A stretch of DNA of 64,000 bases, from NCBI GenBank assembly GCA_027490195.1, contig JAIXYN010000048.1, forward strand, positions 1 through 64,000, read 5' to 3'. The first letter of the stretch is position 1, and each line of letters starts with the position of its first letter. This DNA is from Verrucomicrobiaceae bacterium. GTDB taxonomy: Bacteria; Verrucomicrobiota; Verrucomicrobiia; Verrucomicrobiales; Verrucomicrobiaceae. Shown piece after piece: positions 48,979 through 62,665 of this stretch. A program made the translations under genes and the position numbers. The notes under the pieces are model-generated. The model ran no database searches and had not been told where the DNA came from. It was given only the letters and a program-made list of their open reading frames with translations.

Positions 48979-49668
48979 ATGATCGATCTTATCTCCAAAG
49001 GCGGACCGCTCGTATGGCTCCTCATAGGGTGCCTGTGCTTCGCAGGAGCTATTTTCATCGAGCGTCTGGCCTACTTTCACCGGGCGAGCATGAACGTCGG
49101 TGAATTTCTCGCTGGGCTGGCCAGCCTGATCCGCCGCAAAAACTTCGCTGAGGCCCTGCAAGAGTGCGTGGCCACACGGGTGCCCGCCGGGCGCGTGATC
49201 CACGCGGCGCTGCTGCGGCACCACGCGCCGCGCGAGCAGCTCAAAGAAATCGTGCAGGAGGCGGGTCAGCTTGAGGTCCCAAGGCTGGAGCGCTTTCTCG
49301 GCATCCTGAACGCCATCGCACACGCGGCACCGCTGATCGGCCTGCTGGGTACCGTGATCGGCCTGCTGGACAGCTTTACCAGTCTCTCCTCCGCCAATGG
49401 TGTTGCGACACAGGCTGACGTGGCTCGCGGTGTGTATCAGAGCCTCATCACCTCGGCGCTCGGTCTGGTCGTGGCGATCCCTGCCTATCTCTCTTTTGCC
49501 TTCCTCAGCGCCCGCGCCCGCTCCCTCATGCATGATTTGGAACGCGCTGGCATCGAAATCGTGAATCTCATCGAAGACGCCAACAGCACTGACAACATCG
49601 TGGAATTCCGCCCGGCGGAAGCCGCACCGCCGATGACGAAATCGCGTGGTCGCGGGATGAAAGGATAA
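48979..49668 (+). CDS. exbB: ExbB/TolQ/MotA-family channel protein with Glu-to-Gln change
   Basis: A 229-residue protein with three membrane helices (residues about 10-30, 112-133 and 155-178). It shows the family core GLLGTVIGLLDSF with the conserved Thr125, and GVYQSLITSALGLVVAIPA in the third helix. In E. coli ExbB the matching segment is GIAEALLATAIGLVAAIP with the conserved Glu176; here that position is Gln154. The partner ExbD also lacks its essential acidic residue. It should form the pentameric part of a Ton-type complex in the inner membrane. First gene of a four-gene operon. Confidence 0.9.
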   Translation: MIDLISKGGPLVWLLIGCLCFAGAIFIERLAYFHRASMNVGEFLAGLASLIRRKNFAEALQECVATRVPAGRVIHAALLRHHAPREQLKEIVQEAGQLEVPRLERFLGILNAIAHAAPLIGLLGTVIGLLDSFTSLSSANGVATQADVARGVYQSLITSALGLVVAIPAYLSFAFLSARARSLMHDLERAGIEIVNLIEDANSTDNIVEFRPAEAAPPMTKSRGRGMKG

Positions 49669-49740: not shown

Positions 49741-50145
49741 ATGAAGCTCGAGAGTTATCTGCCCAAGCAAAGCCCCTGGCTGTACACGGTCCCGTTGCTG
49801 AACACGATTCTGCTGCTGTTGGTTTATTTCCTCCTCACCAGCAACTTTGTGGTGCAGTCCGGTATCAAGGTGGAGCAGCCGCAGTCGAACTCGCGGCTGA
49901 CAGGTTTTGACCGCGCCCACATCATCACCGTGCCCGCCGGACTGGAGAACGCCCTGTATTTTGACGGGGTTCGCACCACCATTGGCGAGCTGCGCGAAAA
50001 GCTCAAAGCGAACCGCGAAGGCGAACGACGCGCCATCATTCACGCCGCCAAGCAGGCGCAGCATGGCCGCGTCATCGAGATCGGTAACATCGCCCTCGAG
50101 CTCGGTTACGAAGTCGCGTATTCCACCGTTCCGCCAAAGGCATAA
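49741..50145 (+). CDS. exbD: ExbD/TolR-family protein with Asp-to-Asn change
   Basis: A 134-residue protein with one N-terminal membrane helix (VPLLNTILLLLVYFLLTSNFV) and a periplasmic TolR-like domain (VEQPQSNSRLTGFDRAHIITVPAG, VRTTIGELREKLKA, then a RAIIHAAKQAQHGRVIEIGN segment). ExbD and TolR carry an invariant Asp in the helix (E. coli Asp25 in TPFIDVML) that conducts protons. At this place the codon is AAC and the residue Asn21. Follows exbB by 72 bases. Because both partners are altered, this may be a complex that does not use the standard proton path. Confidence 0.88.
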   Translation: MKLESYLPKQSPWLYTVPLLNTILLLLVYFLLTSNFVVQSGIKVEQPQSNSRLTGFDRAHIITVPAGLENALYFDGVRTTIGELREKLKANREGERRAIIHAAKQAQHGRVIEIGNIALELGYEVAYSTVPPKA

Positions 50146-51236: not shown

Positions 51237-51974
51237 ATGAATTCTCCCGTATTGCCTCAAGCGCCTGCCACCTTTCCTCCCACCCTGTGGAGCATGGTGC
51301 GACTCGCTGTCGCTGAAGGGCAGCCGGGGGCGGACCGGGCGCTGAATGACCTCTGTAGGCTCTATGAGAGGCCCATCATTGTCTTCCTCCTCCGCAAAGG
51401 CCACTCGTCGGATCAAGCCGAGGATCTCAAACAAGCGTTCTTCGAGCACCTGCTCGCCAAAAACGCCTTTGCCGATGCCTCAGGACTCAAAATCAAACTG
51501 CGGGCTTTTTTGATCACCAAACTGCAGTCGTTCCTTATCGACCGCCATCGTCATGACATGGCCGCGAAGCGCGGCGGCGGCAAAGTCTCCCCCATGGCCG
51601 ATCTCAGCGAGACGCAGGCCATCCTGGCCGAACCCGTCGAGGACCGCACGCCCATCGTCGCCTTCCAGCGCCAATGGATGGAAACCATCGCGGCGAATGC
51701 GATGAAGGATCTCCGCGCCGACTACACCCAGCGCGGCCAAAGCGATCTCTTCAAAGCCCTCGCCCCCTTCATCACCGGCGGCAGCGATCAAACCCTCTCC
51801 ACCCTCGCCACGCAGCTTGCGCGCCCAGAAGGCACCCTCAAAAGCGACATTTTCCGCCTCCGCGCCCGCTGCCAGAACCTCATCCGCGAGCAGATTGCCA
51901 CCACCCTCGACGATCCCACCCCCGAAAACATCACCACCGAGCTGCGTGAGCTCATGGCCACCCGAATTCATTGA
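51237..51974 (+). CDS. ECF-like RNA polymerase sigma factor
   Basis: A 245-residue protein. Region 2 is recognised in LYERPIIVFLLRKGHSSDQAEDLKQAFFEHLL and LRAFLITKLQSFLIDRHRHD; region 4 in LSTLATQLARPEGTLKSDIFRLRARCQNLI, where the helix-turn-helix is followed by a recognition helix. The linker is long and the C-terminus extends beyond region 4 (ENITTELRELMA). In Planctomycetes and Verrucomicrobia such sigma factors lie directly before Ser/Thr kinase genes, as here: the first kinase starts five bases after the stop. The kinase may phosphorylate and switch the sigma factor on. Its target promoters are unknown. Confidence 0.88.
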   Translation: MNSPVLPQAPATFPPTLWSMVRLAVAEGQPGADRALNDLCRLYERPIIVFLLRKGHSSDQAEDLKQAFFEHLLAKNAFADASGLKIKLRAFLITKLQSFLIDRHRHDMAAKRGGGKVSPMADLSETQAILAEPVEDRTPIVAFQRQWMETIAANAMKDLRADYTQRGQSDLFKALAPFITGGSDQTLSTLATQLARPEGTLKSDIFRLRARCQNLIREQIATTLDDPTPENITTELRELMATRIH

Positions 51975-51979
51975 CGATC

Positions 51980-54856
51980 ATGGCCTCCGAGCATCCATCC
52001 CCCGGATATGATCCTGCGCAGTGGCCGCCGCCCGCGCCACAGGAGCTTCAGGCGATGCTGCCAAAGTATGAGGTGAAGTCACTGCTCGGACGCGGTGGCA
52101 TGGGAGCGGTCTATCTGGGCCGTCAGGATGCCCTTGACCGCCCTGTGGCCATCAAAATTCTGCCGCCGGGGCTGGAGCAGATCGATCCAGCGTATGGAGC
52201 ACGCTTCCGGCAGGAGGCCATGTCTCTGGCAAAGCTGAACCATCCCGGCATCGTGGCCGTGTACGACTTCGGCTGCACGGAGCAGGGGTTGTGGTACATA
52301 GTCATGGAATATGTCGATGGCACGGATGTGGCGCAGATGCTGGCCAAAAAAGGGCAGCTATCCTCCCAGGATGCCATGGCAATCACAGCGCATGTCTGCG
52401 ATGCGCTGCAATACGCCCACGCACGCGGCATCATCCACCGCGACATTAAACCGGCGAACATCATGGTTGGCTACAATGGCGTGGTGAAGGTGGCGGACTT
52501 CGGTCTCGCCAGAATGAACCGTGGTGAACAGTCCAGCCTCACCCATAGCGGCATGGCAGTGGGGACGATGCACTACATAGCCCCAGAGGCACTCATCCTC
52601 GGCAATACCGTCGATCACCGGGCAGACATCTATGCCATGGGCGTCATGCTTTACCAGATGCTCACCGGCGACCTGCCTCGGGGTATGTTTGAGCTGCCAT
52701 CGCATAAAGTCGCTGGCCTCGACCCGCGTTACGACAAGATCATCACCCGCACCCTGCAAAGTGACCGCGAGCAGCGCTACCCCAGTGTGAAAGACCTGCG
52801 CCACGACCTGGATGCGATCCTTACCGAGCCGGTGACTCAGGTCGATCCCAATGCGGCGGAGGCTCCTGCGGCGCTGAATACGACCGCGAGGCCACAGCGC
52901 CCTGCGGGGCAGCCCTACCGACCACCGCAGGGGGCCGCAAAGCCAACACCCTGGAAAAAGAAAAGCGACCTGGGCTTCTGGTTGCCTGTCAGCGGCATTG
53001 CGTTTGCGCTAGCTACCTTTTTTGTTTGGACGAACCTTCTGCAGCCAGTGAGGAAGACGATTCAGCGCATTGAAGGTGAGGCATTGGAGGTACTGAAAGT
53101 GACGGGAGGCGTAGCCGAACCGCAAGCAATGAAGCAAACCAACGCCCTCTGGAGCGGCGATGCGCATCTCTGGTGGCACGGTGGCGAGGCAGGCAATAGC
53201 CTCGATCTTGAATTCACCGTGGCGGAAGGCCAAGCGGGCAAACAGCGTCTTAAAGCCGCCTTCACCTCCTCCAGCGACTACGGCATCGTCGAGATCAGCC
53301 TCGACGGCGAAAAGCTAAAGGGGAGCATTTTCGACCTCCAGGCAAACTATGCCGTCATCACCGGCGCACGCGACCTCGGCCTTTACGACCTCGCTGCGGG
53401 GTCCCACATGCTACGCATTGCCATTCTGGACACCAGTTGCATCAACATGGATAAGCGCGTCGCATACAACATAGGCCTCGATTACCTCCAACTCGAGCCG
53501 CCTGTGAGAGATATTGTTCCGGCCGCGACTGGGACGAACATCGCTGTCAAGGCACAGCCGAGCGCCTCGTTTTGCAGTCCATACAGCCATGTTCATGTTC
53601 GCCACCTCAGTGCTTCACCAGAAAACGCCGGAAGAAAATCTTCGGATGAAGGACTGCCACAGCAGGCTTGGCATCCACACAAAGGCAGCGCCGAGTGGGT
53701 GCAGTACGAGTGGGAATCGCCTCAGGTCATTGGTGAATGCCGCGTCTTCTGGTATGATGACAGTGCGGTGCGTCGTGACGGCTGCGCCCTGCCTGCATTC
53801 TGGCGACTGCTCTACCGTGAGGAGATCACCGGAGCCTGGGTGCCAGTTCAAGTCGCCATACCATCCGCCGAGCGAGATACATGGAACAGCGTGAAATTCC
53901 CAGCCGTGCGCACCACCGCATTACGAATCGCCGTCCAGTGCCTGGATGGTTTATCAGCTGGAATCTGCCACTGGCAGGTTCTTGCCGCCGATCCCGCCTC
54001 CCTCCCTGATCCCAAAACGTACGAGCACCCTGACCTCTTCCTCGGCGATCTTTCGCCTCTTCATGCGCATACCCATTGGTCACCTTATTGGATCAATACC
54101 ATCACGGCTAACGATAGGAACGCGCACTGGTCCATCATGGTCGGCAGGAAGCCCTGCTGGCAATTCTTGTTCGCGCATGCCCACAGCCGCCTCGACTTCG
54201 CCATCCCCGCTGGCTATACCCGTTTCACCGCGTTTGGAGTCGGCGTTAGCGATGTGCGCACCGGAGAGGTAATGTCTCAAGGCCATTGGAAGCACCGTGT
54301 TCTCGTGGATGGCAAGGTCTTACAGGAATCGAACGAACTCTCCACCTACAAGGACCACGAGTTTGGCGTGGATGTTAACTTTCCCGCTGGTTCCAAAGTT
54401 CTCACCTTGATCAACGACCCTCTCGGCAGTCGCAACAGTGACTACGCCCATTGGGCCTACCCCACGCTCCTCTCAGCAGAGAGTCAGAAATTGCCATCCA
54501 CAGCGACTGTTTCAGCGCACGCTCCCGCGCTTCTCTTTCCCCCGAAAAAAATCCCCGAAGGTGCCTTGCTCACATCAACACTCAGCACGGCCCGCATGCC
54601 GTCGAAACGCCAAGGCGAGAAATTTGGTCTGCGCTTCATCAATATGATGCCAGAGACGGTGAAGCTCTACTGGCTCTCTGGCGACAAGCAACACCTCTAC
54701 CACACTATGCTCCCAGGAGACGAGCGCGTCATGATTACCTACGACGGCCATGTCTGGCTGATCACCAACGCAGCGGATGAACCGCTCGCATGCATCATGG
54801 GCAGCCCGTCCCACCCTGTCGTTGTCGTGGACTCGGCAGGGCGCGGGCTCAAGTGA
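51980..54856 (+). CDS. Receptor-type Ser/Thr kinase with carbohydrate-binding-like and VHL-like domains
   Basis: A 958-residue membrane kinase starting at the ATG at 51980. Kinase domain (about 28-280): G-loop LGRGGMGAVYLG, Lys59, catalytic HRDIKPAN with Asp155, DFGLA, and PEALIL. One membrane helix (about 329-350). The outside part has a beta-sandwich of the type found next to DUF2961 domains (384-507; GDAHLWWHGGEAGNSLDLEF), an F5/8-type sandwich (527-660; CALPAFWRLLYREE), an NPCBM-like domain (684-832; YTRFTAFGVGVSDV), and at residues 881-935 a segment like the VHL beta domain (INMMPETVKLYWLSGDK, LYHTMLPGDERVMITYDGHVW parts). It probably senses envelope or extracellular glycans. Confidence 0.88.
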   Translation: MASEHPSPGYDPAQWPPPAPQELQAMLPKYEVKSLLGRGGMGAVYLGRQDALDRPVAIKILPPGLEQIDPAYGARFRQEAMSLAKLNHPGIVAVYDFGCTEQGLWYIVMEYVDGTDVAQMLAKKGQLSSQDAMAITAHVCDALQYAHARGIIHRDIKPANIMVGYNGVVKVADFGLARMNRGEQSSLTHSGMAVGTMHYIAPEALILGNTVDHRADIYAMGVMLYQMLTGDLPRGMFELPSHKVAGLDPRYDKIITRTLQSDREQRYPSVKDLRHDLDAILTEPVTQVDPNAAEAPAALNTTARPQRPAGQPYRPPQGAAKPTPWKKKSDLGFWLPVSGIAFALATFFVWTNLLQPVRKTIQRIEGEALEVLKVTGGVAEPQAMKQTNALWSGDAHLWWHGGEAGNSLDLEFTVAEGQAGKQRLKAAFTSSSDYGIVEISLDGEKLKGSIFDLQANYAVITGARDLGLYDLAAGSHMLRIAILDTSCINMDKRVAYNIGLDYLQLEPPVRDIVPAATGTNIAVKAQPSASFCSPYSHVHVRHLSASPENAGRKSSDEGLPQQAWHPHKGSAEWVQYEWESPQVIGECRVFWYDDSAVRRDGCALPAFWRLLYREEITGAWVPVQVAIPSAERDTWNSVKFPAVRTTALRIAVQCLDGLSAGICHWQVLAADPASLPDPKTYEHPDLFLGDLSPLHAHTHWSPYWINTITANDRNAHWSIMVGRKPCWQFLFAHAHSRLDFAIPAGYTRFTAFGVGVSDVRTGEVMSQGHWKHRVLVDGKVLQESNELSTYKDHEFGVDVNFPAGSKVLTLINDPLGSRNSDYAHWAYPTLLSAESQKLPSTATVSAHAPALLFPPKKIPEGALLTSTLSTARMPSKRQGEKFGLRFINMMPETVKLYWLSGDKQHLYHTMLPGDERVMITYDGHVWLITNAADEPLACIMGSPSHPVVVVDSAGRGLK

Positions 54857-54984: not shown

Positions 54985-55019
54985 CATGTTGAACGTTCAA
55001 AGTTGAATGTTCGATGTAC
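54985..55019 (+). repeat. TTGAA/TTCAA simple inverted repeat tract
   Basis: GTTGAACGTTCAA followed by AGTTGAATGTTCGATGT is a run of half-palindromes just before the second kinase gene. Similar low-complexity leaders are common in PVC genomes and yield spurious extensions when translated. The rest of 54857-55036 shows no gene. Confidence 0.5.
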
Positions 55020-55036
55020 TCCAATCCCTCCTCCCC

Positions 55037-58000
55037 ATGACTCCGCAAGACACTCCCTCCAGTGACCCACTCTTCGGCAATGCCGCCAGCGACCTCCTTC
55101 GCGAAGCCGTCGGCACGGATGGAAAGCCGCCCTCTGATCCGCGTTACTGGCAGCCGCCGACGCCGGAGGATCTTCAGTCGCGGCTCGGAGGTTATGTGAT
55201 TGAGGCCTTTCTCGCTCGCGGCGGCATGGGTGCGGTGTATCGCGGCACTCAAACCTCACTGGAGCGTGCCGTCGCCATTAAAATCCTGCCGTCGCTGCTC
55301 AGCGAGCATGACGCGAACTTTGCGCTGCGCTTTAAACAGGAAGCACGAGCCATGGCGCAGCTCAACCACCCTGGCATCGTGAAGGTCTTCGACTTTGGCG
55401 AGATGAGCGACGGCACGCTCTTTTTTGTCATGGAGTTCATCGACGGCACGGACGTGGCTCAAATGGTGGCACGCCAGGGGCGGCTCTCTTCCGCTCACGC
55501 GCTGGCGGTCACTGCTCACGTGTGCGATGCGCTGCAATACGCCCATGAGCTGGGCATCGTTCACCGGGACATCAAACCGGCGAACATCATGGTCGGCATA
55601 GACGGACAGGTGAAGGTGGCGGATTTCGGACTCGCCAAGTCTTTCCAAAGCGGGAACACCAGCCTCACAATCACAGGCCACGTCATGGGCACGCTGCATT
55701 TCGTGGCACCGGAAGCGCTCACCCTCGGCAGCAGTGTGGATCATCGGGCAGACATCTACGCGACGGGCGTGATGCTCTACCAGATGCTTACGGGTCGCCT
55801 GCCGCAGGGCATCTTCGAGCTGCCCAGCCTGCTCGTCCCCGGCCTGGACCCGCGTTACGATCCGATAATCGCCAATGCCATGCGGGAAGACCGCGAGGTG
55901 CGCTACCAAGCCATCCTTGAAATGCGTCATGCGCTGAATGCCATCCTCACCAAACCCGTGCAGCGCTCAGAGGTCGCCAAGCAGAACATTACACCCACCT
56001 CGGCACCACAAGCTGCCACACCGCCAAAACCACAGCCCGGCCAGCAGTACTACCGCCCCCCACAGGCGCAGAATGCAGCCCCACCCCTGCGCCAGAAATC
56101 AAACACGACCACTTGGCTTCTCGCCGCCGCAGTTGTTTTGGCGCTTGGCGGGATCGCGTGGATGAATATGGGGAACTCAGCACCACCTTTACCTGTTACC
56201 GACTCCACCGCTGAAGCGCCTGATTCAGCCAAACCGAACCCGATGGGTCCAATCGGCGATCTGGTCTTTCCAACGGTGCAGTTTAACGGTGCCACCATCT
56301 CCGAGTGCGTCGAGTATTTTCAGATCAAGAGCCGTGATCTCGATCCGAACAAAAAAGGCATCACCTTCCTCGTCGATGAAGCAACTCGGAATTCCACGGT
56401 AATCATTGACCTCGATCTCAAAGACATCCGCGTGGCTGATTTCATTGAGTGCTTTGCCCGTTTTGCACGGCTGGAGGTCAGCTACGTCGGCGACGCGGTA
56501 CGGTTGAAGGCATCCCCCTCGGTGAAACCGCCATTCCCCATCGGAACGCCCACGCCGAAGCTACAGCAGCTAGGCAAAAACATCTTCCCGATCATGCATT
56601 TCGAGAAAGCGACACTTGAGGAGGCCTGCGAGTATGTGCGCGTTAAACAAAGAGACTTCTCAGGTCAGCATCTCAATCTCGTCATCGACGCTGACTTCAC
56701 CCAGAGGAAACATGAGATCACTATGGACCTTACCCAGGTTCCCCTTTCCGATGGCCTAGCCTACATCACCGAGATGTGTGACGCCGAGGTGACTTACCTT
56801 GCGGATGCGATCTACATCCAGCCAAGGTCATCCTCCACTGCAAAATTACCGCTTACAATCGGAGCACCCACTTCGAAGCTCCAGCAGTTGGGCAAGACCA
56901 TCTTCCCAACAGTCTCATTTCAAAATGCGACCCTTGCGGAAGCCTGTGAATATGTCCGCATCAAAGGAAGGGAAATTTCAGGGCAGCCTGTCAATCTCAT
57001 CATCGACCCTGACCTCAGTTTGCAAAAGCATGAGATCAGCATCGACGCCCACCGGGTTTCCCTTTCAACAGCACTCAGCTACATCGCCGAACTGAGTGAG
57101 GCTGAGGTGGCTTATATTGCCGAAGCCTTTTATTTACGGCCCAGGTCTGCCAAGCCCGTGCAGGCCGATCCTAATGCCAATCAGCCTGGGGGTGAGGCGG
57201 GCAAGGTCGTCTTCCCCAGCGTTCGCTTTCAAAACGCCACCATCGGCGAGGCGGTGGAGTACCTGAGGGTGAAGAGCCGTGATCTTGATCCACAGAAGAA
57301 AGGGATGGTGATCCTCCTGGATGATGCAGCAATCCGAGCTGCCGGCACAATCACCCTCGATAGTCAAAACATCACCGGTGCCAACGCCTTGGCGCAGATT
57401 GCCAGCGTGGCAGGTGTTGAAATTTATCGTGTTGGGGAAGCCACACGCCTGAGAGCACCTGCGACGACCATGAAACCAACTGAGACAGCACCAAAACCGG
57501 AATCACCTCCCCCCTCTGTCTCTGTCCCACCAGCGCCGTCCAAGACTGAACCCGAGTACCGCACTTTCACCAACAGCAAAGGCCAGAGCATTCGTGCTAT
57601 CTTGCTTATGGTGGCCGATGATAGCGCTGTGCTAAAGCTTGAAAACGGCCAGCGGCACACCATCAAAGCCGCCACTCTCAGCGTTGCCGACATCGAGTAT
57701 CTGAAAACCAAAGGTCTCGTCATGCCGCAGCCACCCGCTGTGGCCGCAGCAAAGGCTCCGGCACCGAAACCAGCTCCTGTAGCGCCGGTGGAGACGCCGA
57801 AGATGGTTCCCGCCCCCAGTGCCGCCACAACATATGGAAGCATGGAATTCTCCCCGAACTGGCTGCCGCAGACGCTGACAGCAAAACGGGAGTTGCTTGA
57901 GTCGCTGGAGTTTTACTGCAAGGCTGCCATTGGAAATGCACCCAAAGGCCAGGAACCCATCCCGGGTACCATTGTTGGTGGCATACGTTGGCGCATGCCG

Positions 58001-58552
58001 ATTGACCAGGCCGTCCAGACGCTGCCAAGGGGCTTCAACAAGATCATGGAACGGCCCATGGTGCACCCCTGTCTGCCGAACGACTCGCTCATCCTCTGCG
58101 GCTTCCAGTTCAAGAGTTTCGTGGATCATGGGCAGCCCTTCAACCAACTGTTCCTGCTCGTGGACAAGGAGCGGAAAGTTGTCTCCGTCCAGTTCGTGGA
58201 CCAGAACGGCAAAAATGCGAGGTGGCTCCCTGAGCCAGACGGCATCCGCGAACCCTATTTCAATTTGGTCAGTCTCACTCACAACGGCAGCAGTGGTAAA
58301 GAAGTTCCGTATCAGATTCTCCGGGGCGGCAGCAGTGCGGTTTGCATCAAGACCGCCTTTCAGGACAGAACTGGGCGAATGCCGAACATGCCTAAGCTGC
58401 CGACGAATATCCCCAATATGCCAACGATGATGCCAAGCATGACCTCCGGCAGCCGAATCTATGAAAACGTACATTGGTACATTCCAGCTCCTTTTGCGCG
58501 CTCCATCCTGGATATTGTAGAAGTCTACCGGAAAGCGGGCGTTATTCAGTGA
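55037..58552 (+). CDS. Receptor-type Ser/Thr kinase with four STN-like repeats and SHD1 domain
   Basis: An 1171-residue kinase; the ATG at 55037 (MTPQDTPSSDP) is preferred to one ten codons upstream inside repeat sequence. Kinase (about 48-298): LARGGMGAVYRG, Lys82, HRDIKPAN with Asp178, DFGLA. Membrane helix near 358-377. Then four homologous repeats of about 85 residues (410-493, 514-598, 618-705, 723-808) with phrases such as VFPTVQFNGATISECVEYF and IFPTVSFQNATLAEACEYV, resembling the secretin/TonB short N-terminal (STN) fold. An SHD1 domain follows (840-892; FTNSKGQSIRAILLMVADDS). The C-terminal 230 residues (IRWRMPIDQAVQTLPRG) are not recognised. Confidence 0.87.
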   Translation: MTPQDTPSSDPLFGNAASDLLREAVGTDGKPPSDPRYWQPPTPEDLQSRLGGYVIEAFLARGGMGAVYRGTQTSLERAVAIKILPSLLSEHDANFALRFKQEARAMAQLNHPGIVKVFDFGEMSDGTLFFVMEFIDGTDVAQMVARQGRLSSAHALAVTAHVCDALQYAHELGIVHRDIKPANIMVGIDGQVKVADFGLAKSFQSGNTSLTITGHVMGTLHFVAPEALTLGSSVDHRADIYATGVMLYQMLTGRLPQGIFELPSLLVPGLDPRYDPIIANAMREDREVRYQAILEMRHALNAILTKPVQRSEVAKQNITPTSAPQAATPPKPQPGQQYYRPPQAQNAAPPLRQKSNTTTWLLAAAVVLALGGIAWMNMGNSAPPLPVTDSTAEAPDSAKPNPMGPIGDLVFPTVQFNGATISECVEYFQIKSRDLDPNKKGITFLVDEATRNSTVIIDLDLKDIRVADFIECFARFARLEVSYVGDAVRLKASPSVKPPFPIGTPTPKLQQLGKNIFPIMHFEKATLEEACEYVRVKQRDFSGQHLNLVIDADFTQRKHEITMDLTQVPLSDGLAYITEMCDAEVTYLADAIYIQPRSSSTAKLPLTIGAPTSKLQQLGKTIFPTVSFQNATLAEACEYVRIKGREISGQPVNLIIDPDLSLQKHEISIDAHRVSLSTALSYIAELSEAEVAYIAEAFYLRPRSAKPVQADPNANQPGGEAGKVVFPSVRFQNATIGEAVEYLRVKSRDLDPQKKGMVILLDDAAIRAAGTITLDSQNITGANALAQIASVAGVEIYRVGEATRLRAPATTMKPTETAPKPESPPPSVSVPPAPSKTEPEYRTFTNSKGQSIRAILLMVADDSAVLKLENGQRHTIKAATLSVADIEYLKTKGLVMPQPPAVAAAKAPAPKPAPVAPVETPKMVPAPSAATTYGSMEFSPNWLPQTLTAKRELLESLEFYCKAAIGNAPKGQEPIPGTIVGGIRWRMPIDQAVQTLPRGFNKIMERPMVHPCLPNDSLILCGFQFKSFVDHGQPFNQLFLLVDKERKVVSVQFVDQNGKNARWLPEPDGIREPYFNLVSLTHNGSSGKEVPYQILRGGSSAVCIKTAFQDRTGRMPNMPKLPTNIPNMPTMMPSMTSGSRIYENVHWYIPAPFARSILDIVEVYRKAGVIQ

Positions 58553-58818
58553 ATCGTTATTTATCCATCATCCATTCATTCATGCCAGGCGTCTTTTTTG
58601 AGTTGGATAGTACGATGGACACTCCGCTGGCTTAAGGTTGATTCAAAGGCGCTGCTTACCGACGAAAAGAGCGTCCATTGCGCTGCCAGCCTGGAACCAG
58701 CATCATTTTGTCAGTGCAGTGAATGCAGGCTTGCGTTCCAGTCAGCCAATCGGCGACACTTGCGCACATAATCCCTCATCTCGTGTCCTCACGCGCATCC
58801 CATTCCCCCACTGACGCC

Positions 58819-59748
58819 ATGCTGCCCGCCGCCACTGCTCTGCAAGCGTCCCAACAAATCGAAAGCATCATTGCGAGTGTGTCGCAGATCATTCTTGGCA
58901 AAGAGAATGTCGTGCGCCTCGCGGTGACGTGCCTTTTGGCACGTGGCCACCTGCTGTTTGAAGACCAGCCCGGCGTTGGCAAAACGATGCTCTCTCAGGC
59001 GCTCGCGCAGGCGTTGGGGCTTGGCTTCCGCCGTGTGCAGTTCACCAGCGATCTCCTGCCCGCCGACATCCTCGGCGCTTCGGTGTATGACCGGGACACA
59101 GCGGCGTTTCATTTTCATCGCGGCCCGGTTTTCACGCAGGTGCTGCTGGCGGATGAAATCAACCGCGCCACGCCCAAGACCCAGTCAGCGCTGCTTGAAG
59201 CCATGGAGGAAGGCAAGGTGACCGCCGATGGAGCCACGCATGCGCTGCCCGAACCCTTCTTTGTCATCGCCACGCAGAATCCATCTTCGCAAATCGGCAC
59301 CTTCATGCTGCCGGAGTCGCAGATGGACCGCTTCCTCATGCGTCTGGCGCTCGGCGTGCCAGACCGCAGCGCTGAACGAGCACTTCTTGAAGGCCAGGAG
59401 CGCCGTGAAATGCTGAAGGCGATGCAGCCTGCGATGACGTTCACCGAATTGCAGCAGTTGCAGATCTGGACGCGCGCCGTGTACGCTTCACCTCCGTTGC
59501 TCGATTACTTGCAGGACCTGCTGGCCGCCAGCCGCGTGCAGGGGCACGGGCTCTCTCCGCGTGCCGGGCTTTCTCTGCTGGCCGCAGCGCGAGCCTGGGC
59601 GCTGCTCAGTGGGCGGGCGATGGTGCTGCCGGAAGACATTCAGGCTGTCGCTGTGGTCGTCATGGGGCATCGTCTCGAACATGCCGCTGATGGCATGTCC
59701 GGCGTGGAACTCGCGCGGCAGTTGATCGCTGAAACCCCCGTGCCTTGA
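58819..59748 (+). CDS. MoxR-family AAA+ ATPase
   Basis: A 309-residue ATPase; the ATG at 58819 starts MLPAATALQASQQ. Features are IILGKENVVRLAVTCLLARGHLL, Walker A EDQPGVGKTML (about residues 48-58), FTSDLLPADILGASVYD, Walker B QVLLADEINRATPKTQSALLEAMEE, and the sensor-type FVIATQNPSSQIGTFMLPESQMDRFLMRL. MoxR proteins act as chaperones for DUF58/VWA partners. Here the DUF58-transglutaminase fusion starts four bases downstream. The preceding 266 bases (58553-58818) contain no gene. Confidence 0.97.
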   Translation: MLPAATALQASQQIESIIASVSQIILGKENVVRLAVTCLLARGHLLFEDQPGVGKTMLSQALAQALGLGFRRVQFTSDLLPADILGASVYDRDTAAFHFHRGPVFTQVLLADEINRATPKTQSALLEAMEEGKVTADGATHALPEPFFVIATQNPSSQIGTFMLPESQMDRFLMRLALGVPDRSAERALLEGQERREMLKAMQPAMTFTELQQLQIWTRAVYASPPLLDYLQDLLAASRVQGHGLSPRAGLSLLAAARAWALLSGRAMVLPEDIQAVAVVVMGHRLEHAADGMSGVELARQLIAETPVP

Positions 59749-59752
59749 TCTC

Positions 59753-62665
59753 ATGAAAGTGCGCATGCGCTGGAACCGACACACGCTGGCGCTGCTGGCC
59801 ATCGTGGCGGGTATGTGGTATGCGGCGGAGGCGCAGTCCAATGGTGCCGCCCATTTGATCGCGCTGCTCACGGCGACGATGGGCCTGCTCTCATGGCTGC
59901 ATGCACGGGCAAATCTGCGTGGCTTGAATATTCGGCTGATCGGTGCCAGGCCTGCCGCACAGGATGCTGAAAAGTGCATTCCCGTGGAGCTACGTGCCAC
60001 GGGCGCTGTCTCTCCATGCGGACTCGAAGTCTATGTGATCGGTGCCTCCACGCCTGTGTTTGTTGAACGAGTGCCTGCAGGTGGCGCGGTGGTTGTCGAT
60101 CTGCCTCCGCCCCTGCACCGTACCAGTGGTTCGTTGCAGCTCATGGTGCGCAGTGTTTACCCGCTGGGCCTGTTCTCGGCGGAGTGCCTGGTTGAGACCA
60201 AGTGGGTTCGCCGCGTGCATCCCGAACCTGCCGGTGATCTACCCCTGCCTGCGCCAGACACTTCGCAGCAGGGAGAGGCTATCGCTGTTTCCACATCTCG
60301 TGGGCAGACCAGTGGTGGTGACGATTTTGCTGGTCTGCGTGAGTGGCGCGCGGGCGATTCACCACGTCACATCGACTGGCGTTCGGCGGCGCGCGGCGGC
60401 CCTCTAATGGTCAAATCCTGGAGCAGCGGTGTTCAAGGTTTGGTGGTTCTCGACTGGAACGCATTGACTCTCGATGAACCTGCCCGTGCAGCACAAATGG
60501 CACGCTGGATGGAAATCTGCGAAGATGAAAGCAAGCCGTATGAACTCCGTATGCCGGGACTCATCATTCGTGCGAGTCACGGTCCTGCCCATTTGCGGCG
60601 CTGCCTTGATGCGCTCTCCATGCAGTCGAGCACGGATGCCGGATCAGCCCTTTCGGATGAATTGCAGGCAGGCAAGGCGGCCAGTGTTCTGAGTTTGGAG
60701 CAGTCCACCTTTCTGCCCAAACGACCGCTGCTGTTTCTCAGTCTCGCGTTGCTCCTCGCCATTCTGCCGCTGCAGGGCTACATCGCCACGGCAGGCTTGG
60801 TGGTATGTGCGTTGTGCCTCATCTGGCGCGGGGTGCTGCGCATGGCGGTGCCTCATCTTCTGGTGCGCATGGGAGTCATTATCGCTGGTGCCGCCTCTGT
60901 GTATTTCAGTTATGGTGAGCTGGGTGGCATGGAGCCCGGCATCGCCATGCTGCTGGTGCTCGCCGGTGCCAAGATGCTGGAAAGCCGCACCCCACGTGAG
61001 TTCCAGGTGCTGGCGCTCATCGGCTGGTTTCTCGCCTTCTGCGCAGTCCTGCTGGAAAGCCACCTCGCCCGATCTGTATGGACCTTGTTGGTCGTCCTCT
61101 TCATCACCGCCTGCATGGTGCGCTTTCGGCGCAGCATTCCGGGCGCGCGTGAGCCGCTCCGCGTGACTGGCATGCTCTTTGCCCAGGCGCTGCCCTTGGC
61201 ACTGCTGTTGTTCTTTGTGTTTCCGCGTGGGCTGCTGGATCTGGGTTCTGCGCTCGGCCGCAGCCGCTTTGGTCAGACAGGCCTCGATAACGTTCTCGAT
61301 CCTGGCACCATCGCCAAGGCGGCCCAGAGTTCGGATGTGGCCTTCCGTGTTCGCTTTCCAGACGGCACACTCCCTTCAAACGAGACCCGCTACTGGCGCT
61401 GCCTCACGCTCTGGAACTGTGAAGGCATGCGCTGGACGCGTGGTGAACGCCTCAGCTTTGCCCCCCAGCTACCACGTCCGAGCGGCGGCGCGGATCTGCG
61501 TCAGGTCATCGACCTGGAGGCACATGGCAAACGCTGGCTGCCCGCGCTGGATCTGCCGCTCATGGCCAAGCTGCGTGGCGAGCGCCTCCCTCCCGAATTC
61601 GATCAATCGCTCGTCTCTCCTTTCATGGTGCAGAATTCAGAGCGTTTCGAGGTTGTTTCGCGCTTCGAGCTGCCGCCCTTTCGTGAGCTGCCGGAGGATC
61701 ACCGCGAAGCCGCGCTGCAACTGCCGCCAAACATCCCGCCCAAACTCAGGCAGCTCACTGACTACTGGGAATCCGTGACGCAAACGGATGAGCAGGTGGT
61801 GCAGATAGCACTCAATTACATCAGAACGCAGGGCTTTAGCTACACGCTGGAGCCGGGGGAGTACCAAGGGCCGCAGGCGCTGGAAGACTTCTTTCTGAAC
61901 CGCCGCATCGGTTTCTGCGAGCACTTCAGCGCCAGCTTTGCCACACTCATGCGCATGGTGGGAGTGCCCTCGCGCATCGTTGTCGGTTACCTTGGTGGCG
62001 AATACTCAGACCACAATGGTGGCTACCTCATCGTGAAACAAAGTGACGTGCATGCGTGGACGGAGGTCTGGCTGGAGAAATACGGCTGGTATCGCGTCGA
62101 TCCCACTGGTGCGCTCGCGCCCGACCGCGTGAACATCGACCTGCGGGCCTTCCTGGCCGGTGGTGCCGAGGAGGCGGAACGCCAGCGCCGCAGCCTGTGG
62201 GGGCGTTCCGTGCAGCGCCTGCGGCTGTGGTGGGACAGCGTCAATTACGACTGGCAAAACCAAGTCATCGACTACAACCAGGAAGCTCAGCGCGGCCTGC
62301 TTGAAAGTGTCGGTCTGCGTCAGAGCAAACTGCTGCTGCTCATCCCCAGCGCGGCCTTCGTCGCGGTGGGTGGCTTCCTCATCGCCTTGTGGCTGCGGCG
62401 TCCCGCCCGCCATGCCGATCCATGGATGCGTCTGTGGCAGAGCCTGGGCCAACGACTGGCCAAAGCTGGCGTGCCACCAGGTGCTGCATGCGAGGGGCCC
62501 CTCGCATTTGCACAGCGCGTGGCGCAGGCACGTCCAGATCTTGCCTCGCAAATGAAACGGATGACTGACATGTACGTGAGCGGCAGGTATGGAGGCGCTG
62601 ACGTGATCGAGGTCTTCAAGCAAGAGCTGAAAATCTGGCGCATCAAGCCACGCACTGCGCGGTGA
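59753..62665 (+). CDS. DUF58-TgpA fusion: DUF58 plus transmembrane transglutaminase
   Basis: A 970-residue membrane protein joining two usually separate proteins. Residues 1-310 are DUF58: two helices at 10-50, then FAGLREWRAGDSPRHIDWRS and MVKSWSSGVQGLVVLDWNAL. Residues about 320-480 carry the multi-helix DUF3488 region of TgpA (MEPGIAMLLVLAGAKMLESRTPREFQ). The transglutaminase core follows, with Cys in GFCEHFSASFATLMRMVGVPS, His in DVHAWTEVWL and Asp in YRVDPTG. A last helix (about 859-882) precedes a DUF4129-like tail (SGRYGGADVIEVFKQELK). Likely an envelope protease or transglutaminase-like enzyme served by the MoxR ATPase. Confidence 0.93.
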   Translation: MKVRMRWNRHTLALLAIVAGMWYAAEAQSNGAAHLIALLTATMGLLSWLHARANLRGLNIRLIGARPAAQDAEKCIPVELRATGAVSPCGLEVYVIGASTPVFVERVPAGGAVVVDLPPPLHRTSGSLQLMVRSVYPLGLFSAECLVETKWVRRVHPEPAGDLPLPAPDTSQQGEAIAVSTSRGQTSGGDDFAGLREWRAGDSPRHIDWRSAARGGPLMVKSWSSGVQGLVVLDWNALTLDEPARAAQMARWMEICEDESKPYELRMPGLIIRASHGPAHLRRCLDALSMQSSTDAGSALSDELQAGKAASVLSLEQSTFLPKRPLLFLSLALLLAILPLQGYIATAGLVVCALCLIWRGVLRMAVPHLLVRMGVIIAGAASVYFSYGELGGMEPGIAMLLVLAGAKMLESRTPREFQVLALIGWFLAFCAVLLESHLARSVWTLLVVLFITACMVRFRRSIPGAREPLRVTGMLFAQALPLALLLFFVFPRGLLDLGSALGRSRFGQTGLDNVLDPGTIAKAAQSSDVAFRVRFPDGTLPSNETRYWRCLTLWNCEGMRWTRGERLSFAPQLPRPSGGADLRQVIDLEAHGKRWLPALDLPLMAKLRGERLPPEFDQSLVSPFMVQNSERFEVVSRFELPPFRELPEDHREAALQLPPNIPPKLRQLTDYWESVTQTDEQVVQIALNYIRTQGFSYTLEPGEYQGPQALEDFFLNRRIGFCEHFSASFATLMRMVGVPSRIVVGYLGGEYSDHNGGYLIVKQSDVHAWTEVWLEKYGWYRVDPTGALAPDRVNIDLRAFLAGGAEEAERQRRSLWGRSVQRLRLWWDSVNYDWQNQVIDYNQEAQRGLLESVGLRQSKLLLLIPSAAFVAVGGFLIALWLRRPARHADPWMRLWQSLGQRLAKAGVPPGAACEGPLAFAQRVAQARPDLASQMKRMTDMYVSGRYGGADVIEVFKQELKIWRIKPRTAR

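Follow-up and report, generated by a model that had tools for sequence, protein, structure and literature searches.

A predicted single-pass Ser/Thr kinase with four tandem repeats homologous to secretin N0/STN-type domains in a Verrucomicrobiaceae bacterium

The DNA analysed here (hereafter, the window) is a 64,000-nucleotide stretch of a Verrucomicrobiaceae genome (assembly GCA_027490195.1, contig JAIXYN010000048.1, positions 1 to 64,000 of the forward strand), and our subject is an open reading frame (ORF) in it that encodes a Ser/Thr kinase with four tandem repeats behind a transmembrane (TM) segment. The homology of these repeats to secretin N0/STN-type domains is well supported, and they stand in an unusual architecture. 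Related genomes are cited below by G numbers and loci by L numbers. The ORF has the following features.

55007–58552, + strand: Ser/Thr kinase ORF with four N0/STN repeats, an SHD1-like stretch and a C-terminal domain (CTD) of unknown kind; 1,181 amino acids, likely start 55037
55199–55804, + strand: PknB-like kinase domain, residues 65–266 (PF00069, 2.6e-45)
56117–56173, + strand: single TM segment, residues 371–389, from hydropathy
56246–56533, + strand: N0/STN repeat 1, residues 414–509
56558–56845, + strand: N0/STN repeat 2, residues 518–613
56876–57163, + strand: N0/STN repeat 3, residues 624–719, 55% identical to repeat 2
57191–57478, + strand: N0/STN repeat 4 (the one modelled), residues 729–824
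57557–57709, + strand: SHD1-like stretch, below the family cut-off (PF03983, E 0.028)
57806–58549, + strand: CTD, in relatives part of a separate SHD1-CTD gene

The closest kinases in two relatives align by BLAST from residue 11 onwards. This residue corresponds to the ATG at 55037, which is therefore the probable translation start, as the original prediction had chosen. The kinase identity proposed there was borne out by the PF00069 match, and the kinase motifs VAIK, HRD and DFG were seen directly in the translation, with no internal stop. A proline-rich linker joins the repeats to the SHD1-like stretch. The SHD1 domain claimed at this place was retained only as a weak SHD1-like stretch: scanned alone, the segment scored 14.7 bits against a PF03983 cut-off of 23.7 and is not a family member by this measure, and SHD1 was missing from the whole-protein Pfam list at E ≤ 1. 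When the whole SHD1-CTD proteins of relatives were compared with PF03983, two of four scored 14.8 and 15.5 bits and the other two were unlisted. The CTD had no Pfam family at E ≤ 1 in seven of eight members and one weak match (E 0.13) in the remaining member, and its comparison with the PDB gave one chance-level match only (E 1.3).

Each repeat is about 95 residues long, not about 85 as first described, but every one of them carries the motif beginning F-P-x-V-x-F, repeat 2 having M in place of V. Besides the closely similar repeats 2 and 3, repeats 1 and 4 are 44% identical, and the remaining four pairs share 24–31%. The whole protein matched NF042912, the model of the verrucomicrobial type IV pilus secretin (Amuc_1098), at 6.8e-39 (133.5 bits) in four stretches, the best of them in the N domain of the model. 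In a whole-genome search, each repeat matched a stretch within model positions 254–363, in this N domain, with E values of 2.2e-9 to 2.4e-7. The score of the kinase lies below the full-length cut-off of 750 bits, whereas the two true secretins of the same genome reached 982.7 and 908.1 bits. In pairwise BLAST, the ectodomain aligned in four pieces with the genome's own secretin SecA at 31–41% identity (E 1.7e-14 to 5.7e-12, computed for that single subject), and the stretch EYLRVKSRDLD is identical between repeat 4 and SecA. A 20-row profile of the repeats, secretin N domains and other copies picked out PilQ of Neisseria meningitidis among PDB entries (chain E 2.8e-5), a match that is not independent of the secretin rows because the profile contains them. 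Profiles, BLAST to the genome's own secretins and the predicted fold thus agree with the STN/secretin-like nature first proposed for the repeats, and no profile pointed to an unrelated fold. A calcium-binding loop in the motif DLDPxKKG was considered and dropped; SecA and others have an insertion there, and L093 and L094 lack the motif.

Repeat 4, modelled from an 18-row alignment, gave a mean predicted local distance difference test score (pLDDT) of 83.2. The order of its elements was strand–helix–strand–short helix–strand–helix–strand–strand, which has an extra short middle helix relative to strand–helix–strand–strand–helix–strand–strand, the N0/STN order. The best structural matches were PilQ (4av2, Z 9.9), the PupR STN domain (6ovk_R, Z 9.8) and a FecR-like protein (Z 9.7), and the model had a Z of 8.7 to both FpvA and XcpQ. 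From this order and these matches, the N0/STN fold was assigned to repeat 4 only. Phage-tail, baseplate and VgrG rows also appeared in the structure list, up to Z 9.4, and we read them as a common arrangement because the sequence evidence favours secretins. The model of the whole ectodomain had a mean pLDDT of 54.5 and a predicted template modelling score (pTM) of 0.34, from an alignment in which one row (the L090 SHD1-CTD protein) was partly misaligned into the repeat region, and the CTD and the repeat arrangement were not interpretable in it.

Related operons showed that the sensor is swappable. G048 keeps the gene order second kinase, kinase, SHD1-CTD, with identities of 59% for the second kinase, 84% for the kinase region (residues 11–324) and 75% for the SHD1-CTD protein (91% for the CTD), and its kinase ends in an AhpC-TSA/thioredoxin-like domain, without an N0 match; this operon thus combines a closely similar kinase region and CTD with another ectodomain. 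In G031, an extracytoplasmic function (ECF) sigma factor gene (71% identical) is followed by a kinase bearing FGE-sulfatase domains and by a separate gene for SHD1-CTD. The kinase of G023 is 82% identical in the kinase region and has two N0 repeats and a weak third, without the CTD; compared with it, one pair each, the ratio of non-synonymous to synonymous substitution (dN/dS) was about 0.10 for the kinase and about 0.30 for repeats 3–4. The number of repeats varies among kinases, from four in the window to three in L068/L088 and two plus a weak third in L069/L089, and the L068 and L069 kinases had N0 repeats but no CTD match (L068 ends near a contig end). Among the matches listed from 68 genomes of the family, the repeats and the CTD occurred in one match only in the window's own protein. 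Since SHD1-CTD is a separate gene in relatives, the window protein is most simply explained, from these comparisons, as an N0 kinase fused to its neighbouring gene.

A domain tree of 139 rows and 103 columns was used to place the repeats. It left out copies of repeated loci (L068, L069, L073, L128 and L133), domains shorter than 75 residues and those with E ≥ 1e-12, and 50 of its 136 inner branches were starred. Repeat 1 paired with the first repeat of L088 (100/97), repeat 4 grouped with the last repeats of L088, L089 and L090 (100/98), and repeats 2 and 3 grouped with the middle repeats of the same three loci (99/94). L090 is a Brevifollis protein that has three repeats but lacks a kinase; its first repeat fell within the repeat 1/repeat 4 group (95/87). 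Because L088 has the repeat 1, repeat 2/3 and repeat 4 types once each, repeats 2 and 3 likely represent a later duplication. The window repeats nest in a 59-row clade (99/92) of copies from M56 proteins, other proteins and kinases, with mostly open inner forks. The G079 kinase has a single N0 copy, which falls outside the clade and joins copies of two further genomes in a starred group; it was probably taken up independently, and kinases therefore likely acquired N0 domains at least twice. This kinase (L132:2060–5350) comes from a different class of the phylum and carries 15 Sel1 repeats and one C-terminal N0 domain.

The 20-row profile matched 302 of 387 Verrucomicrobiota genomes at E ≤ 1e-5, and many of the listed frames were secretin-sized. 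In 96 loci, hand-chosen from the match lists, some overlapping (e.g., L068/L088) and not a random sample, the domain was carried by 32 M56/BlaR1-type, 22 secretin, 7 giant, 36 other and 6 kinase ORFs, where ORFs were picked as the longest non-overlapping ones, so that short genes can escape. The six kinase ORFs represent four genomes (that of the window, G057, G023 and G079). The 32 M56 ORFs stem from 30 genomes and carry the N0 domains C-terminal to the M56 part; one of them (L092) bears a partial N0 domain, and the following ORF carries the next one. A BlaI-like ORF lay directly upstream in all 12 of the M56+N0 genes examined, with PF03965 above its cut-off in all four of the BlaI-like ORFs tested and the other eight judged by eye. 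Small proteins with two or three N0 copies were also found, some with an apparent signal peptide (by eye). At L082:7388–9010 and L091:9443–11137, a GH62-type glycosidase with two N0 domains adjoins a small protein that also has two.

The window's own genome contains further carriers. At L032:4668–7925 (C8), a BlaI-like repressor precedes an M56/BlaR1-type protein in which pieces of two secretins make up the C-terminal part: this part includes two Amuc_1098-type N0 domains, a region that aligns with the N part of the C50 secretin at 52% identity over 129 columns, and a 32% identical core piece of the same secretin (PF00263, 21 of 27.5 bits). A giant ORF of 3,261 amino acids (L031:3445–13230, C84) has two Amuc_1098-type N0 domains, 78% and 75% identical to that of SecA, with shorter relatives in six other fetched loci. 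Large ORFs at L029:1695–7521 (C64), in the neighbourhood of the pilus secretin gene, each have several matches to pieces of the secretin model.

The following genes lie upstream of the kinase.

48979–49668, + strand: ExbB (Pfam)
49741–50145, + strand: ExbD (Pfam)
51237–51974, + strand: ECF-like sigma factor, first gene of the presumed operon (TIGR02937, 2.3e-4, 20.8 of 42.9 bits)
51971–54856, + strand: second kinase, with NPCBM and VHL beta-like profile matches behind the kinase domain

Counted to its stop codon, the ECF gene shares four bases with the second kinase if the latter begins at its first possible start (TTG), an overlap which suggests that the sigma factor and the kinases form one operon. 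Homologs of the second kinase (56–59%) precede the kinase in L069 and L070, and an ECF homolog 71% identical precedes a kinase in L071; two further ECF homologs (41%) pass PF04542. Of six distinct related contigs, two have an ECF homolog ahead of a kinase, and another has one ahead of an N0-only gene. The proposal that the kinase reports to the sigma factor is supported by gene order only. In PMC8103513, EcfP-type ECF factors, which are activated by Ser/Thr protein kinases, have the acidic DAED motif replaced by uncharged residues; such a switch is not indicated here, where the sigma factor retains an acidic AED. Downstream of the kinase, at 58723–62665, lie a MoxR-type AAA ATPase and a TgpA-like transglutaminase protein with a DUF58 match.

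N0 domains dock to proteins within secretin assemblies. The periplasmic part of PupR has an STN subdomain that was seen in complex with a PupB domain, according to PMC7186176. On these two precedents, the array should bind a periplasmic protein, and our preferred reading, to which we assign a probability of about 0.5, is that it is the protein-docking periplasmic sensor of a single-pass Ser/Thr kinase with output via clustering. In this mechanism, the sensor would consist of the four secretin N0-type (STN-fold) domains in tandem, a putative periplasmic partner would bind them, and the clustering of the kinase would change, switching phosphorylation. The output would probably be the co-encoded ECF sigma factor or its regulators, and the fused SHD1-CTD would probably be an accessory factor acting with the kinase. 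The most plausible candidate partner is one that itself bears N0 domains, such as a pilus secretin or its unassembled subunit; the ancestry of the repeats suggests such a partner, and on the analysis as a whole it is plausible. We are doubtful of a wider version, in which the N0 kinases and BlaR1-type proteins of Verrucomicrobiota would pair with secretins or unassembled subunits and read pore assembly, the array acting as a decoy ring segment on a switch.

Several observations weigh against the docking-sensor reading, beginning with the assignment of the repeats. PF07660 (STN) gave 18.6 bits for the protein, with a cut-off of 28.4, and 12.8 for repeat 4 alone, and the repeats are therefore classed by N0/STN fold and as homologs of the secretin N domain, not as members of Pfam STN. 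The best single PilQ stretch of the 20-row search had an E of 0.036 and covered profile positions 39–92 only, and a profile of the four repeats alone had no PDB match at E ≤ 10. The best Foldseek E for repeat 4 was 1.7e-3, none reaching 1e-3, and three phage-tail or monocin proteins scored Z 9.0–9.4 to its model. As for docking, PupR needed both of its subdomains to bind the PupB domain, and its STN subdomain failed to do so when alone (PMC7186176). The 59-row clade unites the repeats with M56 and other copies and contains no secretin copy, so membership in a common family does not imply secretin binding. A scan of 15 window proteins found no pilus protein. The domain also occurs fused to GH62 glycosidases and, by itself, in small proteins, and it may thus serve a purpose other than sensing; together with the clade, the GH62 carrier favours a more general docking role. 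On the output side, the sigma factor motif is QAED here and EAED, DAED and DAED in three related sigma factors (placed by eye).

The array could instead be a spacer or a self-association scaffold, with sensing located elsewhere, for example in the SHD1-CTD. The variable number of repeats would fit this explanation, as would the CTD being 91% identical to that of G048 when repeats 3–4 are 60% identical to those of G023 (different pairs, a rough comparison), and the whole-ectodomain model, with its pTM of 0.34, leaves the repeat arrangement unsettled. However, the L068 and L069 kinases keep their N0 repeats without a CTD match, the CTD pairs with kinases of other ectodomains, and no CTD match was found among the listed M56 ORFs with N0 domains. 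We consider a scaffold unlikely, although it retains some weight. It is less likely again that the repeats bind peptidoglycan or another small ligand in the manner of the PASTA repeats of Stk1/PknB. Four tandem repeats do stand behind the TM segment of a PknB-like kinase, and BlaR1 itself senses cell-wall drugs, but no PASTA family appears among the Pfam matches of the protein at E ≤ 1, and its relatives in sequence, like the N0/STN rows among its structural matches, belong to protein assemblies or signalling complexes.

Signalling of the Ton type, in which a TonB receptor touches the array and ExbB–ExbD and a TonB-like protein drive it, appears very improbable. The original prediction was right that ExbB and ExbD are real, on the same strand about 5–6 kb upstream, and the PupR STN domain was the second structural match; the protein after ExbD, which has no Pfam match at E ≤ 0.01, contains a TM segment and by eye resembles TonB. 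Its suggestion that the kinase touches a Ton receptor, in contrast, found no case: the genome (95% complete) has nine TonB plug receptors above the cut-off, none of them at any of the 11 STN places (E ≤ 10), and neither ExbB nor ExbD was detected (E ≤ 1e-3) in the ORFs picked at 14 related loci, among them six distinct contigs that carry the kinase or SHD1-CTD genes. That the gene is a recent chimera or a decaying paralog without function is least probable of all and hardly credible, because although the combination of repeats and CTD is confined to the window protein among the listed matches and the SHD1-CTD is a separate gene in relatives, the kinase motifs are present without an internal stop, the dN/dS values given above speak for function, and the same repeat types recur in L088, L089 and L090.

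For most bacterial kinases, the role of the periplasmic part is unknown. In this case, two unrelated signalling enzymes carry one and the same module, and an operon with matching gene order has a thioredoxin-like domain in its place; the role of the module is therefore accessible by swapping outer parts. These patterns suggest that pore parts have been reused as a plug-in sensing module, and if the partner is a secretin, the kinase would give the cell a means of monitoring outer-membrane pore assembly.

Among known systems, the Amuc_1098-family secretin (NF042912) shares with the kinase the sequence family of each repeat, in the N domain only, whereas the kinase has this domain four times, C-terminal to a kinase domain and a TM segment. 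The BlaR1-type M56+N0 proteins of Verrucomicrobiota likewise have N0 copies, from the same supported clade, C-terminal to a membrane signalling enzyme, but catalysis there falls to an M56 peptidase, encoded next to a BlaI-like gene, and the own-genome example also bears parts of a second secretin. PupR/FecR resembles the kinase as a membrane regulator with a periplasmic C-terminal STN fold behind its TM segment (Z 9.8), a position called a new arrangement in PMC7186176; here, a kinase domain replaces the anti-sigma domain, the STN-type domain is present in four copies, and none of the nine plug receptors is a partner with STN. The PknB/Stk1 PASTA kinases (NF033483) share the kinase domain, the single TM segment and four tandem repeats, but the match of 296.8 bits lies below the 450-bit cut-off, the repeats here are not PASTA, and the protein does not belong to that family. 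Among the matches listed from the open-licence PMC literature, none described secretin N0 domains in a kinase or BlaR1 protein, nothing combined BlaR1, M56 and secretin, and the titles and opening lines of abstracts on BlaR1 and secretin described no such fusion. A survey of Ser/Thr kinases of the Planctomycetes–Verrucomicrobia–Chlamydiae superphylum (PMC11032199) describes single-spanning proteins with varied periplasmic modules, including a sulfatase-modifying domain, and its main text, which we searched for the word secretin and not for STN, does not contain that word. Varied periplasmic kinase parts are therefore known in this superphylum, and, as far as our searches of the literature show, the secretin-derived version is new.

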